Source: Ferrimicrobium acidiphilum DSM 19497
GTDB lineage: Bacteria > Actinomycetota > Acidimicrobiia > Acidimicrobiales > Acidimicrobiaceae
Direction of reading: 5' to 3'
NCBI RefSeq assembly: GCF_000949255.1
Contig: NZ_JXUW01000001.1
Location: 124,001 to 188,000, forward strand
DNA: 64,000 nucleotides
Position numbers and translations under genes: made by a program. Position 1 is the stretch's first letter; each line of letters starts with the position of its first letter. Shown here one piece after another: positions 486 through 8,650 of the stretch. Below the pieces are notes generated by a model that worked only from the letters and a program-made list of their open reading frames with translations, was not told the origin of the DNA and did not search any database.

Positions 486-592
486 CGTCTCCTGCCCCCT
501 CCTACACTCGAACTAACAGTAGGCTAGTCAGTACTAGCAGTGCGAACACTGACTTGGCGCTGAAGCTAGGATCTGAGAAAGTGAGGACGACG

Positions 593-1702
593 TTGAACTT
601 CGCGCTAACCGCAGAGCAAGAGGAGCTAAAGAGCACAACTCGGCGATTTCTTGCCCAACATCTGCCGACAAGTAGTGTGCGAACATCGATGGAGTCCGCC
701 ACCCCTATTCCGGTGGACCTCTGGCGCGAGATGGCAAACGGACTTGGAATCGCCGGCCTATTGATCCCAGAGGTAGCTGGAGGACTCGAGCTTGGGTTCA
801 TTGAAGCTGCGTGTGTTCTTCAAGAGATAGGTCGCTCAGTTGCTCCCCTGCCTTTCCTGGTTACCTCAATCCTCGGCGTAAGCCTGCTCTCTCATGCGGA
901 CGCTAAAGATCCGATCATCGCAGAGATCTTTGCAGGGATTAACACCGGCGATATCATTCTTGGTCTCGTATGCGGATCTATAGACGACCCGTTACGGCCG
1001 TGCGGGACATGGTCAGGCGCAGGAGTAGGAGTCACGGCTGAAAGTCGCTTCGCCCTCGATGGAGCTCAAGCTACTCACCTACTCGTGGCGCTGGATGGCG
1101 ATCGTGGCACTGTCCTCGCTCTAGTTCGAGCCGATGCACCGGGTGTTACCGTCACCGCAGAGGTAACACTTGACCTAACTAGGCCCATGGCTCATGTTCG
1201 ATTCGACTCCTCCCCAGCCACAGTCATTCTTGATCACACCCAGCTCCAACAGTTAACTGAACGGTTTGATGCCATCGCTAGCGCCGGGATTGCACAGGAC
1301 ATGATCGGAGGAGCTGAGCGTGTCCTCGAGATGTCGGTGGAGTATGCAAAGGATCGCCACCAATTTGGCCGCCCAATCGGTAGCTTTCAGGCAATCAAAC
1401 ATCGCCTCGCGGATATGCTCGTCGACGTTGAATCTGCAAAGTCGACAGCTCTCTACGCCGCATTCACCATCGCCGATGCTAGCGATGATCAGTTGATTGC
1501 CGCCGCTACCGCAAAATCAACCTGTGGTGATGCCTACTTTCGCGTGGCAGCAGCCTCCATCCAGGTTCACGGTGGGATCGGTTTCACCTGGGAACATGAT
1601 GCACATCTGTACTTTAAACGTGCAAAAGCTGACCAGATTCTCTTCGGCAATGGTCCGGCTCAGCGGCGAAAACTCGCCCACCTCCTGGGAATCGTAAGTT
1701 AA
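593..1702 (+). CDS. acyl-CoA dehydrogenase (FadE-like, lacks usual base)
   Basis: Acyl-CoA dehydrogenase of 369 aa with the N-terminal helical, middle beta and C-terminal FAD-binding helical domains. The C-terminal block contains DRHQFGRPIGSFQAIKHRLAD and QVHGGIGFTWEHD. I chose TTG 593 because GAGGA lies 5 nt upstream and the protein then begins with the usual family start (NFALTAEQEEL); an in-frame TTG at 554 would add 13 residues. The C-terminal segment where most family members carry the catalytic Glu reads ILFGNGPAQRRK, with no Glu. This is seen in the non-catalytic partner of heterotetrameric actinobacterial FadE enzymes. No partner gene is adjacent. Confidence 0.87.
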   Translation: MNFALTAEQEELKSTTRRFLAQHLPTSSVRTSMESATPIPVDLWREMANGLGIAGLLIPEVAGGLELGFIEAACVLQEIGRSVAPLPFLVTSILGVSLLSHADAKDPIIAEIFAGINTGDIILGLVCGSIDDPLRPCGTWSGAGVGVTAESRFALDGAQATHLLVALDGDRGTVLALVRADAPGVTVTAEVTLDLTRPMAHVRFDSSPATVILDHTQLQQLTERFDAIASAGIAQDMIGGAERVLEMSVEYAKDRHQFGRPIGSFQAIKHRLADMLVDVESAKSTALYAAFTIADASDDQLIAAATAKSTCGDAYFRVAAASIQVHGGIGFTWEHDAHLYFKRAKADQILFGNGPAQRRKLAHLLGIVS

Positions 1703-1784
1703 GCATAGAGCCCCAATGGAGTATCACGTTGTGACCTCCAAACGAGTAGGATGAGAACAGGTAGAAGGTTGCCTGAGTGGTGGA

Positions 1785-2219
1785 ATGAATAATATGGATC
1801 GAGAGAGCGCCGCAGACAAGAACAGTGAGCTTTTGGCTACAGCGGAGGATCGCGAGCGTGCTCGCACATTGTTGCTCCAACGCTTCCGATCTGGTGATCT
1901 GGATTTCGATGAGTATGAGGTTCGCCTCATGCTGCTCACTAAAGCTCGCAAGGTTTCACAGATCTATGAGGCGACGTTCGAACGGACGCGTGCCCCGTTC
2001 GTGGGGCCACGGTGGGACCGTCGCATCCGTCGCATAGACTCCTTCGGGTTGATCCCGGTAGCTGCGCTGGCTGTGTTAAGTTTCTTTATGGGTTGGGTCG
2101 TTCCCCTGCTTATCATCATCGCTGTGGTCTTGGTAGTAATCAACTTGGGATACGGATTGCAATGGTTGCGTTTTCGCCCGATTAAGCGAAGTCTCTCCCG
2201 AAGCAATCACGCCGTGTAA
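1785..2219 (+). CDS. DUF1707/SHOCT-type small membrane protein
   Basis: 144-aa protein. Residues about 20-65 (EDRERARTLLLQRFRSGDLD, then a Glu/Tyr-rich helix) match the DUF1707 type of N-terminal domain, in which a short helical module precedes membrane segments. Two hydrophobic stretches follow, at about 87-105 and 107-125, separated by very few residues, so it is probably a membrane hairpin. The C-terminus is basic. ATG 1785 and ATG 1794 are both possible starts. Function is unknown; family members are found beside transport or regulatory genes in actinobacteria. It is followed after 9 bp by the AhpD-like gene and may be cotranscribed with it. Confidence 0.65.
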   Translation: MNNMDRESAADKNSELLATAEDRERARTLLLQRFRSGDLDFDEYEVRLMLLTKARKVSQIYEATFERTRAPFVGPRWDRRIRRIDSFGLIPVAALAVLSFFMGWVVPLLIIIAVVLVVINLGYGLQWLRFRPIKRSLSRSNHAV

Positions 2220-2228
2220 CCTAGACTC

Positions 2229-2600
2229 ATGCATGATGATCAACACCAACCCTGGCACCAAGTGCAAGAAGATCTCCGCCAGCCGGCGAGGGATCTCAGG
2301 ACAATGATTCCGGAGGTGCTAAAGTCCTACGGGAGTATGCACCATGCTGCCATGGCAGATGGTGAGCTTACCACAAGTACTAAAGAACTCATTGCGCTTG
2401 CAGTCGCTGTCGCTCTAAAATGCGACGGCTGCATCACCTCCCACGCGCGCGGCGCAGCTCGTGCAGGGGTCACTCGGCAAGCAATTGCCGAGGCGCTTGG
2501 GGTAACTATCCTGCTCAGCGGGGGACCCGGTACCGTATACGGTCCCCGCGCTCTTCAAGCCTTCGACGAGTTTCTCGCAGACTACCAAAGTCAGGAATAG
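2229..2600 (+). CDS. AhpD-like / carboxymuconolactone decarboxylase-family protein
   Basis: 123-aa all-helical protein of the AhpD/CMD superfamily. The redox motif C65-D-G-C68 followed by H72 (CDGCITSH) is the AhpD-type CxxC-x3-H signature, and the flanking helices (ELIALAVAVALKCDGC; AIAEALGVTILLSGGPG) are typical. Such proteins reduce peroxides or act as thiol-disulfide partners. The substrate and electron donor are unknown here and no ahpC lies nearby. It sits 9 bp after the DUF1707-type gene and is convergent with the ATP-grasp pair (27 bp between stops). Confidence 0.85.
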   Translation: MHDDQHQPWHQVQEDLRQPARDLRTMIPEVLKSYGSMHHAAMADGELTTSTKELIALAVAVALKCDGCITSHARGAARAGVTRQAIAEALGVTILLSGGPGTVYGPRALQAFDEFLADYQSQE

Positions 2601-2627
2601 CGCACCGTCGTCGGCAAATAATTCTAC

Positions 2628-3410
2628 TCAAGCCACGTAGGATTCACATAACCACTTCATTACACGGCTTGCATGATTGCTGAACCCAAGCTGATATAGA
2701 GATCTTGCCCCCACTAGGTCCTCAATCTCCATCACTATCGGGCCGTGCGGTCCAGACACGGTATCAACACCGTAATAGCCTGCGCCCAATCGTTCGACCA
2801 CCGTTCGAACAAGATCACGTTCCCTTTCGTCTGGTACGACATGATTGACAGTTGCGCCGAGCGAGAGATTCGAACGAAAATCATCTACCGCCTTTCGCTC
2901 TACCGTCGCCACTACCGTAGTGCCCACAACATAGTGACGATGGTCGCAGTTCGCACCCACGACAAACTGCTGGACGACCATCATGGCGCCCCCCTGGTGC
3001 CATCGCCGCCCCTGAATCCTTCGAACTCCCTGACCTCCGTGGCCAAACCTTGGCTTGGCTACCCAGAGAGATGATGGTGTAGTACTCAACGGATACAGCT
3101 CCGGTGTTGCGAATCCATGCTTCTTGCACCAGAGGTACTGAGCGAGTTTGTCATTGCCCAACAGCGCTATTAGTGGGCTATTCACAACATGGGAAATGCG
3201 CCTCGCTAGCCAGATCCGTTGGCGTAGCGAACGCGAACGAACAAGCATCGCGTCAAGATCATCTAATCGAATGCCTCTAAGCTCCTCGGGACCCACCACC
3301 GGAATGACTCGGGCTCCAAACGAACGGCCCGCCGAAACCAGATCATGGAGAAAGAACGAATTTAAACGAAGCTGGTCGCGATCGTAATAGATCGCTACTG
3401 TTGGAGCCAT
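2628..3410 (-). CDS. RimK-like ATP-grasp ligase, second of a tandem pair
   Basis: 260-aa ATP-grasp protein. Its elements are the ATP-binding lysine and glycine-rich loop (K119-P-R-F-G-H-G-G-Q-G), a QQFV stretch near 147-150, DDFRSNLSLGA at 176-186 (the RimK/LysX-type loop) and GVDTVSG near 214. The metal-binding ExN of RimK enzymes is replaced by E228-I-E230, followed by GARSLYQLG. It overlaps the upstream ATP-grasp gene by 16 bp, so the two are translationally coupled. The family joins a carboxylate, activated as acyl phosphate, to an amine, often adding an amino acid. No substrate can be assigned, and no small precursor peptide gene was found beside it. Confidence 0.78.
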   Translation of the reverse strand: MAPTVAIYYDRDQLRLNSFFLHDLVSAGRSFGARVIPVVGPEELRGIRLDDLDAMLVRSRSLRQRIWLARRISHVVNSPLIALLGNDKLAQYLWCKKHGFATPELYPLSTTPSSLWVAKPRFGHGGQGVRRIQGRRWHQGGAMMVVQQFVVGANCDHRHYVVGTTVVATVERKAVDDFRSNLSLGATVNHVVPDERERDLVRTVVERLGAGYYGVDTVSGPHGPIVMEIEDLVGARSLYQLGFSNHASRVMKWLCESYVA

Positions 3411-4267
3411 CTGCCAAGTGCTTGACCGACATATCGAGTAACGTCAATACCAGAGATCGCCGATAGTCTCCAAATATGGGCGTTAGAGTTGACTTCACAC
3501 ACAATCGAACCCTCGTTCCCTTCGTCAAATAGCAGGTCAACCCCCACATTAAAACCTCCAACCGCATTAGCACTTGCCTCAGCGAGTCTGCGTTCGGTCT
3601 CGGACGGTTGATACGGGTACCCTACGCCACCGGCGGACAGGTTGGCGCGAAAATCATCCGGATGTTGGCGGGCTATCGCAGCAATGCAGACTCCATCTAC
3701 CACTTGTAGACGCAGGTCACGTCCTCGCGAACTAGCCACAAACTCTTGCGCAAGTAGATGCCGATCCGCCAAAGCATCTACGAGAGCAAAAACGTCTTCG
3801 GCGGTATTAGCGAGATAGACCTGCGCCCCGAATGATCCCTTCGCCTCCTTGATGACCATAGGTAGCCCAATCTCGTCGATCATCGACATCACCAGCCCGA
3901 ATGCTATCTGCTGTTTTGGATAGACCGGAGGCAGCATCATCGTCTTTGGGATACGCAGTCCGGCAGCAGCGAGGTGGGCATAGGTGCGACGCTTGTCGTC
4001 ACAGATCTCTATCGCCCTAGAGCTGTTGACTACAACTGCTCCCTGGAGTTCTAGTAATTCAGCGAGGGCTACGTCCTTGTCGAGAAACAGGATCAGTTGA
4101 CGGCTACGATCAACCCGATCAACCCTGCTCATAAGTTCCTCAGAGCTCACCAGCGCGACATCAGCAAAAGTCTCACTCAAGCCATGCTGGTACAAGACTC
4201 CGTGGTCGAGAAACTTCTCGCCTAACCCCAGGTTTGCAACCACCAACACATCACGCTTAGCGGCCAT
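3395..4267 (-). CDS. RimK-like ATP-grasp ligase, first of a tandem pair
   Basis: 290-aa ATP-grasp ligase. The start is ATG 4267 (MAAKRDVLVVANL) rather than the upstream ORF limit at 4363, because the longer version adds 32 unrelated residues and runs into the divergent gene. Motifs: K140-E-A-K-G-S-F-G, EFV (175-177), GRDLRLQVV (182-190), DDFRANLSAGG (204-214), GVDLLF (242-247) and the full metal ligand motif E258-V-N-S-N-A, then SGIDV. This matches the RimK/MptN/CofF group of amino-acid ligases, such as glutamyl ligases acting on cofactors or protein termini. The partner downstream overlaps by 16 bp; the product may be a modified peptide or cofactor. Confidence 0.83.
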   Translation of the reverse strand: MAAKRDVLVVANLGLGEKFLDHGVLYQHGLSETFADVALVSSEELMSRVDRVDRSRQLILFLDKDVALAELLELQGAVVVNSSRAIEICDDKRRTYAHLAAAGLRIPKTMMLPPVYPKQQIAFGLVMSMIDEIGLPMVIKEAKGSFGAQVYLANTAEDVFALVDALADRHLLAQEFVASSRGRDLRLQVVDGVCIAAIARQHPDDFRANLSAGGVGYPYQPSETERRLAEASANAVGGFNVGVDLLFDEGNEGSIVCEVNSNAHIWRLSAISGIDVTRYVGQALGRWLQQ

Positions 4268-4361
4268 GGGTGAAGTATTGCTCACCGAGTCTCTTGTCTT
4301 GGGAGGTTCAACAATCCCAATGATAAAGCTTGCACTGCTACAGTCTAGAGAGGGAGGTGCC

Positions 4362-5060
4362 ATGCCAGTAGATCAGTTATGGTGCGAACCAGCAGGCTTA
4401 CAACTTTTTATCGCGACCGTGAAGGAAAGCGCCACCCCTGGAAGACCAACGATCCTGTATTGCCCCGGAATCGCGGATACTGGGCTAGGCGGTAGTGGCA
4501 ACCGAGTGTTGCAGGAGGCCGCCGAACGCCTGAGCTTCTACTGTCATACAGAGGTGGTTGGTGTAAACCCTCATGGAATTGGGGAGTCGGATGGAACGCT
4601 CGGGCCAACAACTTTAATGTCGGACCTTAAGACCGTCATCGCCTTCCTTGCGCCCCGGCCATTGGTTCTGATCGGGTTTGGCCTCGTTGGATACGCTATG
4701 CTCGCCTGTGGGAATGTTGATCCTGTCGTTGGTCTAGTAACAGTCGATCCCTTAGTAGACCAACTCAATGCTGACGAGATCGTCAGTACTGGCGTACGCA
4801 TCGATCCTTCATCCCCCTTCCCCGCACCTGGGTACCCTCTTCCCGCTCCGTCGGAGCTTGCTCGTTGGATGTTGGTCACACCCGGCGACCGTTCGAGAGA
4901 GGACAACTTGGACATTGACGGTCTCATTCAGCGCTATCATCCCGAAGTCCATCGTGTGTATGCTACGTCATCCCGCCTGCAAAACGACCCGCGCCCCTAC
5001 GCGCTCATTCTCGGATGGTTGGAACGAGAGCTCTGGCCCACTCCCACCACGATTTCATGA
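4362..5060 (+). CDS. alpha/beta-hydrolase-fold protein, nucleophile missing
   Basis: 232 aa from ATG 4362, which has a good AGGGAGGTG site; an upstream in-frame ATG at 4266 lies inside the divergent ATP-grasp gene and is rejected. Strand and loop order (TILYCPGIADTG, VVGVNPHGIGESDG, LVLIGFGLVG, WMLVTPGD) follow an alpha/beta hydrolase. At the nucleophile elbow the usual GxSxG reads G-F-G-L-V-G, so the serine is replaced by glycine. It is therefore probably not a serine hydrolase and may be a binding or scaffolding protein. Divergent from the tandem ATP-grasp genes with 94 bp between starts. Confidence 0.6.
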   Translation: MPVDQLWCEPAGLQLFIATVKESATPGRPTILYCPGIADTGLGGSGNRVLQEAAERLSFYCHTEVVGVNPHGIGESDGTLGPTTLMSDLKTVIAFLAPRPLVLIGFGLVGYAMLACGNVDPVVGLVTVDPLVDQLNADEIVSTGVRIDPSSPFPAPGYPLPAPSELARWMLVTPGDRSREDNLDIDGLIQRYHPEVHRVYATSSRLQNDPRPYALILGWLERELWPTPTTIS

Positions 5061-5147
5061 CGAATAGCCTCTCAGCAATTCTTCTGGAATCTCCTAGCTT
5101 GTCCTTTAGATGAACAGTTAGCATGGCTATCGCGAAAGGAGAGTCGC

Positions 5148-5864
5148 ATGCGGATCTTGGTAGTAGATGATGAAGAGACCCTGGTAGACACCCTGAAGCG
5201 TGGTCTAGTCGCAGAAGGCTTCGCCGTGGACACATGTCTCAATGGTTTGGACGGCATCAAGCTGGCCAGAAGTGCACCCTATGACTGCATTGTCCTCGAT
5301 ATAATGCTGCCCGGAATGAACGGTTTCAAATTCACAGCAACCCTACGAAGTGAAGAGATATGGACCCCAATCTTGATGTTGACCGCGAAAGATGGAGAGC
5401 TCGACGAAGCTGAAGCTCTTGATACGGGCGCGGACGACTTCCTCAAAAAGCCGTTCTCATTCACGGTACTCGTCGCCCATATTCGAGCACTACTTCGCCG
5501 CAACGTCGATAGCCGCCCACCCGTCCTAATAGCTGGAGACCTGAAGTTGGATCCATCGAGCCACTCAGTCATGCGCGGTGACACCGCAGTGGATCTAACC
5601 ACCCGAGAGTTCTCCTTCCTCGAGCTGCTCATGCGCTCTAAAGGGAAAGTGCTGAATAAACGAGAGATCATTGAGCACGTTTGGGACTACGATTTTGAGG
5701 GAGACTCAAACATTGTCGAGGTGTACATTGGCTACCTGCGCAAGAAGATCGACGCTCCCTTCGGGACCAAGTCGATACGTACCGTGCGAGGGGTTGGTTA
5801 CCTCCTTGAGGAGGACGGAGGCGCGACAGCCGTTTCCTGCGCCGAGGTTCCAGCGACTGTCTAA
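5148..5864 (+). CDS. OmpR/PhoB-family response regulator
   Basis: 238-aa two-component regulator. Receiver domain 1-120 has the acidic pocket D7-D8, phospho-acceptor D51 (IVLDIMLPG), T79 and K101 (FLKKPF). Winged-helix DNA-binding domain about 130-228 has the typical TREFSFLELLM and VRGVGYLL blocks. A strong AAAGGAGAG site precedes ATG 5148. The histidine kinase gene follows 24 bp later. It presumably controls its own operon and perhaps the cell-envelope-type gene at 7460. Signal unknown. The C-terminal tail after GYLLEEDG is short and unremarkable. Confidence 0.95.
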   Translation: MRILVVDDEETLVDTLKRGLVAEGFAVDTCLNGLDGIKLARSAPYDCIVLDIMLPGMNGFKFTATLRSEEIWTPILMLTAKDGELDEAEALDTGADDFLKKPFSFTVLVAHIRALLRRNVDSRPPVLIAGDLKLDPSSHSVMRGDTAVDLTTREFSFLELLMRSKGKVLNKREIIEHVWDYDFEGDSNIVEVYIGYLRKKIDAPFGTKSIRTVRGVGYLLEEDGGATAVSCAEVPATV

Positions 5865-5888
5865 CCCTTATGCAGGAGCAATACCACA

Positions 5889-7463
5889 GTGAGGCTCTCC
5901 TCCATGGAGAAGTTGGATCATGTCGCCAGGACACGTTTTCCTCCGCTACGGTGGATCGGGCGACAACTCGCATCGGTTCGAAAGCGTACCACGATAGCCG
6001 CCACAGTGGTCGTCGGAATGGTGCTTATGGCTGCCTTTATCGGAGTCGTCATTACGCTCAGAGCTGCCTTGACTCGTAACGTCGTGAACACTGCAAAGAA
6101 CGAAGCCGATGACATCGTGCTATTGGTGCGCGATGGACATCTTCCGAATCCCCTCCCTATACCAAGGGGTGACCTCGCCGCCCAGGTGGTAACGAGCAAC
6201 GGTACCGTTGTCGCATACTCGCCCAACCTTAAGGGAGCCAAGGCTCTGCGCTCACCCAAATACGTTCCATCACAAGGTATTGTTCAAACCGAGGACTCCG
6301 TCCGTGCAAATCGTCTAGCGATCAACGGCAACGTCGATCTTCACACTGTTTTTGTCGCTGACCGGGTCCAAGTCCCCACCTTCCTGGTCGGAGTACTATC
6401 CCGTTCTAAGTCCAGCAATCCAAGTCATTTGATTACTGGTTCCACTGGCAAACCTACAACCTTCGATGTCTATACCATTGCATCGCTCTCCTCTGTGGAT
6501 GCATCGGTGTCAGCTCTAAATCGTGAGTTCCTTATCATCTACCCTATCATCTTGGCGGTAGTGGCTATCTCGACCTGGATTCTCAGCCGCAGAGCTCTGG
6601 CCCCAGTCGACCAAATTCGCCGAGACGTAGAGGAGATCACCGCCCTGAATCTATCAAATCGAGTTTTTCAACCAGATGGCGAAGACGAGATCGCACGCCT
6701 GGCGGTGACGATGAACTCGATGTTAGCGCGGCTCGACGCCTCGGCTGAGCAGCAGAAGCAGTTCATCGCAGACGCTTCACATGAATTAAAAAGTCCGCTG
6801 TCTGCCCTTCGTGCCTCACTTGAGGTAGGACTCCTCCACAGCGAGTCGACCGACTGGCATCAGACGGCCAATATTGCGCTAAGGGAGAGTGAACGGATGC
6901 AGCGCCTAATCGAAGACCTCCTCACGCTCGCCAAGGCCGAGGCTCGCGTACAGGCGGTCCAGGTTACCGTCGATCTTGACGAACTCTGCCGCGAAGAGAT
7001 TCACCGGATTAGACGTACACATCCAGGCATCAACATCGACATGTCCCGAGTGAGCGCAGTACGACTTTTGGGAGATCCAGAGCAGATCAGAAGCATCATC
7101 CGCAACCTCATCGAGAATGCAGTTCGATACGCCAAAACGACAACAGCAGTGTCTGCCTCCACCGATGGACATCTGGCAACCTTCACGGTTGCCGATGACG
7201 GACCAGGGATTCCCGTCGAACGACGCGACGCAGTCTTCGAACGTTTCACCCGGCTAGATCCGGCACGAAGTCGACTACAAGGTGGCTCCGGCCTAGGGCT
7301 TCCCATCGTACGTAGCCTGGTCGAACTCCTTGAAGGGACCGTAACGATTGGGACGTCCGAACTAGGGGGAGCCTGTTTTCGCGTACAGCTGCCGGTCTTG
7401 ACCCGAGACCGTGTACCATCGGATGCGGCAAACGGCCCAATACCAATGAAGGAAAAGGTTTGA
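5889..7463 (+). CDS. membrane sensor histidine kinase
   Basis: 524-aa sensor kinase with transmembrane segments at about 35-58 and 213-233, enclosing an extracytoplasmic domain of about 150 residues. A HAMP linker follows (SRRALAPVDQIRRDVEEI), then the HisKA domain with H298 in ADASHELKSPLSA and the HATPase domain with NLIENAVRY, DDGPGIP and GGSGLGLPIV. The start is GTG 5889 with an AGGAG site. It pairs with the response regulator just upstream. Its stop overlaps the start of the next gene (TTGA), so the glycosidase-like protein at 7460 belongs to the same operon. The sensed signal is probably outside the membrane; its chemistry is not evident. Confidence 0.94.
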   Translation: MRLSSMEKLDHVARTRFPPLRWIGRQLASVRKRTTIAATVVVGMVLMAAFIGVVITLRAALTRNVVNTAKNEADDIVLLVRDGHLPNPLPIPRGDLAAQVVTSNGTVVAYSPNLKGAKALRSPKYVPSQGIVQTEDSVRANRLAINGNVDLHTVFVADRVQVPTFLVGVLSRSKSSNPSHLITGSTGKPTTFDVYTIASLSSVDASVSALNREFLIIYPIILAVVAISTWILSRRALAPVDQIRRDVEEITALNLSNRVFQPDGEDEIARLAVTMNSMLARLDASAEQQKQFIADASHELKSPLSALRASLEVGLLHSESTDWHQTANIALRESERMQRLIEDLLTLAKAEARVQAVQVTVDLDELCREEIHRIRRTHPGINIDMSRVSAVRLLGDPEQIRSIIRNLIENAVRYAKTTTAVSASTDGHLATFTVADDGPGIPVERRDAVFERFTRLDPARSRLQGGSGLGLPIVRSLVELLEGTVTIGTSELGGACFRVQLPVLTRDRVPSDAANGPIPMKEKV

Positions 7464-8650
7464 CAAGACTCACGTTAGATTCATCGCAGAAACCAAAGAA
7501 GCACCGCTCGCTCGCGTATCGTCGTGTTCGAGCTGTCATCGCCGCCGGCGTCCTTGTGGTCGGAGGTTACGGGACTCTCGGAGTGATAGGGGCCCTCAGC
7601 GCATCGGGCTCGGCCAGCCTGCCAATAAAGTTCGTCGAGTGGGTTCGCGGTAACGGTGGAGCGAGTATTGTTCAGACCGCTGAGAACGTTTGGTATAGCG
7701 TCAACCAACCTGCCGTAGGCGGGGCACCCCCCAAAGGTGCACTTAAACCAACCGCCAGTGTACGCCAAAGTCATTCCGCAAACACCTCCAAAATTCTTCC
7801 TGAACCAAAGGCAATCACACCGATTGCAAGTCCACCGCTCCCCCATGAGGGACAGTGGACGCCCGAGGGTCCACTAGTGAACGGATCGCCCGCCCTCTAC
7901 GTGACCTTGATGCGTCCTGACAAGATTCACACCTCGCTGGTTGCCGGCATCGCCTGGCTCGACCCCCATCTCGTGAGTTTCCTTCAGTACGCTGGCGCCC
8001 AAGAGCCGCCGGGCGGTGGAACTTGGCCCTACGTGGCCCCGATTCAGGGGAGCCAAGCCAACAATCTCGTCGCAGCATTCAACTCCGGCTTTCGCATGAG
8101 TGATGCCAAGGGAGGCTACTACGCCTATGGAAAGATGGCCGTACCACTCAAGAACGGGGCTGCCTCATTCGTCGTCAACTCACAAGGCGTGGCGACGGTG
8201 GAGCGGTGGACCCAAGGTCAACACGTCCCTCCATCGATCAAGGTCGTCAGGCAAAATCTGATTCCGATAGTGCAGTCAGGTCGAATCAACCCCGCCGTCT
8301 ACTCATCGAACTACCAGGTTTGGGGAGCTACCGTCGGAAATCAAGTGCTCGTGTGGCGCTCAGGCGTTGGAGTGACATCTAATGGTGCCATCGTATACGT
8401 GAGCGGACCTGGTCTCTCGGTCGCTTCGCTAGCCCGTCTACTCCAGCGAGCCGGTGCCGTTAACGCCATGGAGCTCGACATCAACTCCGCTTGGACTAAC
8501 TTCTTTTACTTCAACCACACGCTCGGCACTCCTGCTAGCCCCGCCAATGGGTACCGTCTGGTCTACAACATGGCAAGGCCGCCTCAACGCTACTTCGAAG
8601 GAACCGCTAGGGATTTTGTAGTGGCCGTCGCACGTAAGCATCCGCTCTAG
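7460..8650 (+). CDS. phosphodiester glycosidase (NAGPA)-domain protein, membrane-anchored
   Basis: 396-aa protein with an N-terminal basic stretch and one transmembrane or signal-anchor segment at about 26-50, a Pro/Ala-rich linker (about 90-130), then a domain matching NAGPA/DUF2233. Visible family blocks are AAFNSGFRM, GGYYAYG and the late GAVNAMELDINSAW, where family members usually have a DGG-type motif. The NAGPA family cleaves sugar phosphodiester bonds; the role in bacteria is thought to concern the cell envelope. The TTG start overlaps the kinase stop (TTGA), so it is an output or accessory gene of the two-component operon. Convergent with sufU. Confidence 0.75.
   Translation: MTRLTLDSSQKPKKHRSLAYRRVRAVIAAGVLVVGGYGTLGVIGALSASGSASLPIKFVEWVRGNGGASIVQTAENVWYSVNQPAVGGAPPKGALKPTASVRQSHSANTSKILPEPKAITPIASPPLPHEGQWTPEGPLVNGSPALYVTLMRPDKIHTSLVAGIAWLDPHLVSFLQYAGAQEPPGGGTWPYVAPIQGSQANNLVAAFNSGFRMSDAKGGYYAYGKMAVPLKNGAASFVVNSQGVATVERWTQGQHVPPSIKVVRQNLIPIVQSGRINPAVYSSNYQVWGATVGNQVLVWRSGVGVTSNGAIVYVSGPGLSVASLARLLQRAGAVNAMELDINSAWTNFFYFNHTLGTPASPANGYRLVYNMARPPQRYFEGTARDFVVAVARKHPL

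Follow-up and report, generated by a model that had tools for sequence, protein, structure and literature searches.

The window analyzed here is a stretch of 64,000 nucleotides from Ferrimicrobium acidiphilum DSM 19497 (contig NZ_JXUW01000001.1, positions 124,001 to 188,000 of the forward strand), and our subject is a pair of overlapping genes within it that encode two ATP-grasp proteins, here called LigA and LigB, together with the adjoining gene for a hydrolase-fold protein, here called HYD. A sequence-only reading of positions 2,628 to 5,060 had described two different, overlapping RimK-like ligases divergent from this third gene. The open reading frames, strands, coordinates and overlap given there held up, and both ligases match the Pfam RimK family. 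The features are as follows.

3398 to 4267, minus strand: LigA, predicted RimK-fold ATP-grasp ligase, 290 amino acids without the stop, metal motif E258-V-N260-S-N-A-H; start picked by conservation.
2631 to 3410, minus strand: LigB, predicted RimK/ArgX-fold ATP-grasp protein, 260 amino acids without the stop, carrying E228-I-E230-D231..G234.R236, in which the metal-motif Asn is replaced by Glu.
4362 to 5057, plus strand: HYD, predicted alpha/beta-hydrolase fold, 232 amino acids without the stop, with G107, R177 and S204 at the Ser, Asp and His places of the triad.
4268 to 4361, no strand: intergenic region of LigA and HYD, 94 bp separating the divergent starts.

With their stop codons included, LigB runs from 2628, LigA from 3395 and HYD to 5060, and the LigA and LigB reading frames share 16 nt (3395–3410). 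The likely starts fall within the listed reading frames, that of LigA at 4267 and that of HYD at 4362, the latter right behind a GGAGG read from the sequence; the two genes thus run in opposite directions from starts 94 bp apart. A promoter scan of positions 2200–5200 returned one weak minus-strand match (4347–4320) versus 2.0 in shuffled sequence, and because such matches are rarer than in the shuffles we take promoter evidence to be absent there. The closest named relative of the window genome is a Ferrimicrobium metagenome-assembled genome, whose LigA is 92% identical.

By established ATP-grasp chemistry, in which ATP turns a carboxylate into an acyl phosphate that an amine then attacks, LigA very likely works as a carboxylate-amine ligase. 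LigA matches Pfam RimK (PF08443) with an E value of 2.6e-32 and 112.4 bits (gathering score 21), exceeds the cut-off of the NCBIfam RimK family alpha-L-glutamate ligase model (TIGR00768, rimK_fam; 165.0 bits against 143.4), and has RimK as its best sequence match in the PDB. LigB matches the same Pfam family more distantly (E 1.2e-14, 54.8 bits, cut-off 21) and scores 70.7 bits against TIGR00768, under the cut-off of 143.4. Its predicted model, built from 41 sequences, has a predicted local distance difference test score (pLDDT) of 93.8 and is structurally closest to ArgX (3vpb; Foldseek template-modelling score 0.81; Z 27.2, root mean square deviation 2.3, 252 residues aligned), followed by LysX and RimK. 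Neither protein reaches the cut-off of any curated equivalog model: the scores and cut-offs for LigA are 111.2/275.6 (LysX, model LysX_arch), 80.9/350 (MptN), 77.8/331 (RimK, model PRK10446) and 47.4/300 (CofF), and those for LigB are 52.3/331 (RimK), 47.6/275.6 (LysX_arch), 55.3/350 (MptN) and 14/300 (CofF).

The two proteins differ at the metal site. The E-x-N metal motif is present in all 84 readable LigA rows (85 in total), and LigB departs from it, with E-[IV]-E-D in all 50 readable rows (51 in total); these counts omit a truncated row from either set (L106 and L027), as well as L068–L069, where the LigA frame is broken or doubtful, and L071–L072, of which one is a fragment and the other matches weakly. 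The E-x-N and E-I-E motifs had been picked out from the window alone, and conservation on this scale places them beyond chance. In the alignment with RimK and ArgX, LigB has its second Glu where their metal motif has Asn (E-V-N in RimK, N-E-L-N-D-V in ArgX, E-I-E-D-V in LigB). Ten LigB residues show no variation across the 41 aligned rows (K88, K119, R158, N181, D216, E228, E230, D231, G234 and R236), and the first six of these line up with their counterparts in RimK and ArgX. On this comparison LigB is probably a carboxylate-amine ligase with a changed metal site. It is also the faster evolving of the two, its lowest identity to the window protein within the family being 25%, versus 35% for LigA.

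LigA and LigB are a real cognate pair. The family referred to throughout is Acidimicrobiaceae, the family-level group (f1) that contains the window genome. Among the 36 genomes of this family that were searched, 21 contain a strong LigA, and every one of the 21 also contains LigB; the two genes adjoin on one contig in 20 and lie on two contigs in the remaining genome (G027). One family genome (G020) has near-identical ligase pairs on two contigs (L101 and L105), one of them cut at a contig end, which may be an assembly duplicate. Outside the family, a search with LigA gave 67 further loci, which the removal of a fragment (L071) and a weak match (L072) reduced to 65 (L006–L070); these Bacillota-type loci come mostly from Bacillota, and one is labelled Mycoplasmatota. 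LigB lies within about 5 kb of LigA in 30 of them and is absent from the DNA examined in 33; one more locus ends too early (L008) and one has a doubtful frame (L069). At LigB strength, the 299 genomes of the Bacillota phylum sampled gave only the sample's centre genome, with 15 others weaker (4.4e-44 to 7.3e-26), and the 296 Actinomycetota genomes sampled gave only the window genome and G012, the next best match being at 9.8e-28. Nowhere did we see LigB without LigA. Viral contigs, searched with LigB first, yielded a single relative (L208), again with LigA adjoining. The end of this contig carries LigA, LigB and a reading frame resembling formate-tetrahydrofolate ligase, in an arrangement like that in Lachnospiraceae; because of this match, which is our own reading of the frames, the stretch probably belongs to a Lachnospiraceae host genome flanking a prophage, and a viral cassette was rejected. 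A plasmid-borne cassette was likewise rejected: among 72,556 plasmid records nothing matched LigB, and only four Pseudoalteromonas records matched LigA, at 33.9% identity.

The spacing and order of the pair vary among the Bacillota-type loci. Spore-germination-type genes, about 4 kb in all, separate LigA from LigB in three loci (L006, L007 and L009; Pfam identifies GerA and GerAC in L006, and the same clusters recur in the other two); Gracilibacillus keeps both ligase genes despite this insertion. An unrelated reading frame stands between them in L032, and LigB is inverted in L017 and L038. Other neighbors vary (FtsK, formate-tetrahydrofolate ligase, PAPS reductase, Mur ligase, DUF5662), and a constant third gene, sought around the Bacillota pairs, was not found.

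Consistent with the cognate pairing, in a tree of the ligases all LigA rows form one group (support 99), as do all LigB rows, at a weak 76; the family LigA proteins are a single clade (99), both ligases stand apart from generic RimK-like rows, and the three main Acidimicrobiaceae subclades are identical between the LigA and LigB parts. Solo LigA proteins of clostridia form a separate clade of 30 rows (98) with no LigB in the DNA examined, and three other solo rows sit among paired ones. No constant partner was found for the solo clade. Solo clostridial LigA genes (L049, L063, L048 and others) often lie 3' of reading frames that resemble type III pantothenate kinase and homoserine dehydrogenase, as read from those frames. 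Neighborhood analysis had been proposed as the way to learn whether the two ligases occur independently: the answer is yes only in part, since the solo clade indicates that LigA does, and LigB was nowhere seen without LigA.

HYD clearly has an alpha/beta-hydrolase fold by its predicted model (mean pLDDT 82.9). The best Foldseek match, at an E value of 3.2e-8, is to an alpha/beta hydrolase, and the top three rows by VIA-align have a Z of 18.0, root mean square deviations of 3.1–3.3 and 212–216 aligned residues; against the Abhydrolase_6 model itself HYD scores 20.3 bits, below the cut-off of 26.3. The nucleophile elbow reads G-F-G107-L-V-G, with Gly at the nucleophile position, so that the sequence-only description of a divergent, serine-less hydrolase-fold protein was accurate. 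Indeed, none of 20 HYD proteins from ligase-bearing genomes has Ser, Asp or His at the respective columns of the triad. Their Ser column holds Gly in 10, Glu in 5, Asp in 4 and Thr in 1, their Asp column Arg in 17, Gln in 1 and gaps in 2, and no His is found. In the 13 ligase-less relatives the three columns read Glu 7 and Asp 6; Asp 12 and Glu 1; and His 6, Glu 5, Asp 1 and one gap. In 19 loci of other families they read Gly 10, Asn 5, Ser 3 and Ala 1; Asp 19; and His 18 and Ser 1. Since Ser occurs in just 3 of these 19, its loss is an old trait of this protein family in the class and is untied to the ligases. HYD proteins of other Acidimicrobiia families (L156–L175) thus keep the Asp (19/19) and nearly always the His (18/19), yet seldom the Ser, with Gly, Asn or Ala in its place. 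Mean pairwise identity of HYD is 0.335 in ligase-bearing genomes versus 0.419 and 0.472 in the other groups, indicating faster divergence.

HYD is found well beyond the ligase-bearing genomes: at an E threshold of 1e-4, a HYD profile matched 144 of the 296 class genomes searched, in some cases over a short stretch alone, and within the family HYD is present in 13 of the 15 ligase-less genomes and in all 8 of the complete ones. We checked in all frames 29 ligase-less loci, made up of the 20 best-scoring matches of the class profile (one of them, G009, in the family) and nine ligase-less loci of the family; HYD turned up in 29 of 29, and no locus had either ligase gene. An acyl-CoA dehydrogenase gene lies on the HYD strand in 25 of these loci and an aconitase gene on the opposite strand in 18. 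The corresponding surroundings in the window are as follows.

554 to 1702, plus strand: acyl-CoA dehydrogenase, leftmost gene of the region described.
1785 to 2219, plus strand: small SHOCT-like protein, between the acyl-CoA dehydrogenase gene and CMD.
2229 to 2597 (to 2600 with the stop codon), plus strand: CMD, a gene of the carboxymuconolactone-decarboxylase family (Pfam CMD, E 1.5e-20), at the left edge of the insertion site.
5148 to 7463, plus strand: response regulator and sensor kinase, directly after HYD; the kinase was recognized by sequence reading.
7460 to 8650: phosphodiester-glycosidase-like protein (Pfam NAGPA, E 1.1e-8), 3' of the two-component system near HYD.

The NAGPA-type gene past the two-component system is kept across the genus. 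In a ligase-less genus of the family (g4), CMD directly adjoins HYD in six of six loci, which is the empty site at which the window has LigB and LigA. In a five-gene FastTree phylogeny the ligase-bearing genera group together with support 1.0; g6 is their closest neighbor (0.879), and g4 lies further out. The 29 loci that have HYD but no ligases, the empty site in g4 and the single ligase-bearing clade are explained most simply by one arrival of the pair next to an already resident HYD; most likely, the ligase cassette landed there once. HYD is the older resident of a syntenic block and is probably no required part of the ligase module. Matches to the HYD profile were absent from the Bacillota ligase loci. 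In one of these (L037), a lipoprotein-like gene upstream of LigA (1671–3074) has a weak PGAP1-like alpha/beta match of 20.5 bits, against a cut-off of 24.3. An obligate three-gene pathway was rejected, given HYD alone in 29 of 29 loci and the pair without HYD in Bacillota. Hence the three-gene set of the sequence-only reading stands in part: the coupling of the ligases was borne out, in the family and in 30 of the 65 Bacillota-type loci, and a place for HYD in their pathway was not.

We favor, with modest confidence, the reading that the two RimK-fold ligases, LigA and LigB, form a cognate and self-contained unit that makes successive amide bonds on a common acceptor, with HYD not required, a reading built on the folds, the motifs, the pairing, the single ligase-bearing clade and the occurrence of HYD without ligases. 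Each ligase would activate a carboxylate as an acyl phosphate with ATP and then join it to an amino group, and the two would act consecutively on one small acceptor, LigB with its modified metal site. The pair would have been acquired once, in one Acidimicrobiaceae clade, by insertion between the side of the block that holds CMD and the acyl-CoA dehydrogenase gene and HYD, the latter being an older protein of alpha/beta-hydrolase fold whose triad is lost and which would be dispensable for the ligase chemistry. That LigA and LigB travel together through different genomes without a constant third gene suggests consecutive steps on a universal cell acceptor, or a heteromeric enzyme. Several observations weigh against this reading. 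The 33 Bacillota-type loci without LigB in the DNA examined, some of which end close by, imply that LigA can act alone or with another partner. The Asn-to-Glu swap in LigB could mean altered or lost catalysis. Every ligase-bearing genome has HYD next to LigA (full length in 20, a fragment at a contig end in one), which hints at a link, as does the fact that the HYD triad Asp changed to Arg on the same branch as the ligases arrived. The gene upstream of LigA in L037, although below its cut-off, is the sole hydrolase-like neighbor among the annotated Bacillota loci, and the species tree is a quick FastTree of five gappy genes, HYD included.

Two of these observations lead to alternatives that we consider unlikely. 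In one, HYD was recruited, so that in this lineage the three proteins serve one pathway, with HYD as a non-hydrolytic binding or transfer partner that has Arg for the catalytic Asp. The Asp column is the only one at which the two ligase-less groups agree (Asp in 12 and Glu in 1 of 13, Asp in 19 of 19) and at which a new residue is close to fixation in the ligase-bearing group (Arg in 17 of 20), and the adjacency of HYD and LigA is kept in the genus of the window despite a rearranged far side of the block. In addition, the structural matches of HYD include BotH (6t6h) and GID1 (3ed1), which we take to be serine-less hydrolase-fold proteins and which act on peptides or ligands. However, the link of Asp-to-Arg to the ligases is one event on one branch, at a column where some g4 rows are gapped, and as such is a hint that could be a single coincidence; Ser was already gone in 13 of 13 ligase-less relatives, with His absent or unseen in 7; HYD is older and occurs without ligases, the Bacillota pairs do without HYD, and faster divergence (0.335 versus 0.419) is expected from drift too. 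In the other, for which we see a similarly small chance, LigB is no working ligase: weakened in catalysis, it would serve LigA as a holding or regulatory subunit, or supply the acceptor site in a LigA–LigB complex. This would fit the faster evolution of LigB and the replacement of the second metal ligand, Asn to Glu, in every readable row, opposite E-V-N of RimK and E-L-N-D of ArgX, but a dead subunit should have lost more than this, the other ATP-grasp residues being invariant in 41 of 41 rows, and Glu is able in principle to bind Mg2+.

It is very improbable that LigA and LigB are ordinary RimK, LysX/ArgX, MptN or CofF enzymes. LigA does exceed the cut-off of the broad NCBIfam RimK family, and the nearest solved structures for the ligases are RimK and ArgX/LysX; set against this, LigA reaches no equivalog cut-off, LigB scores lower still, and both stand apart from generic RimK-like rows, so that the suggestion in the sequence-only reading that the homologs might prove to be known RimK or CofF enzymes is unsupported. 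Moreover, the LysW carrier (PF21344) was found in none of 11 genomes by a search whose control was positive in 5 of 14 known genomes, and LysX-type carrier chemistry was rejected on this ground. More improbable again, to the point of being remote, is a graspetide-like system in which the ligases modify a ribosomal precursor peptide as MvdC and MvdD do. Two tandem ATP-grasp ligases would suit it, and possible alpha/beta hydrolases are reported next to graspetide ligases (PMC8939145). Yet among small reading frames near the ligases, the largest cluster spans just 3 closely related loci out of 38, in a search that excluded frames overlapping larger ones by at least 40%; free spacers at the window genes are only 27, 94 and 87 bp; and the graspetide ligase PsnB matches the ligases far more weakly than RimK and ArgX do. 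An adjacent precursor peptide was therefore rejected, the search for conserved small peptides that had been proposed from the sequence having come back empty. As for the product, of which a modified peptide, an amino-acid-tailed cofactor and a tagged protein terminus had been suggested, the LysX-type carrier and the adjacent precursor peptide fall away, and the suggestion may hold in its general form. A role in defence was rejected, PADLOC giving no match for LigA, LigB or HYD.

Several known systems resemble parts of this locus. The best functional parallel is MyfA and MyfB of Methylorubrum, which are methylofuran glutamate ligases, different ATP-grasp proteins reported to add glutamates in succession (PMC8141765); as proposed for LigA and LigB, they would act in sequence on a shared acceptor, in their case one cofactor, and they differ in being encoded inside an archaeal-like C1 gene cluster. 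RimK, the S6 glutamate ligase (PDB 5zct, 4iwx and 7qyr), shares its fold and E-x-N with LigA; however, it is a single enzyme, its SPG past the metal motif reads N-A-H in LigA, and LigB has E-x-E-D. The N-E-L-N-D-V of ArgX (ArgX/LysX; PDB 3vpb, 5k2m and 3vpd) corresponds to N/M-E-I-E-D-V in LigB, with Glu in place of the ArgX Asn, and the ArgX/LysX systems differ further in their LysW carrier, absent from the 11 genomes searched here. The MvdC/MvdD-type graspetide ligases are tandem ATP-grasp ligases, as are LigA and LigB, and differ in that no recurring precursor peptide was found near the latter in the 38 loci. HYD has the fold of Abhydrolase_6-type alpha/beta hydrolases, but in the window protein Ser, Asp and His are all replaced.

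Paired RimK-like ligases are a known kind, of which LigA and LigB, the latter with a conserved E-x-E-D site, are an unassigned form, and our search of the open literature did not find a paper on the LigA/LigB pair. The findings define a recurring ATP-grasp pair by a signature that can be searched for, namely E-[IV]-E-D-x-x-G-x-R next to E-x-N-[SA]-N. If LigB is active, the Asn of the ATP-grasp metal site would be replaceable by Glu. An unlikely extension is that an immigrant ligase pair and a resident serine-less HYD, turned by the change of Asp to Arg into a dedicated non-hydrolytic partner, constitute a new pathway to an amide-linked metabolite. The analysis separates the ligase pair, as the functional unit, from HYD, a neighbor by history in which the Asp-to-Arg change is a dated clue of possible later recruitment, and the pair itself is common to acidophilic actinobacteria and to Bacillota of gut and soil.

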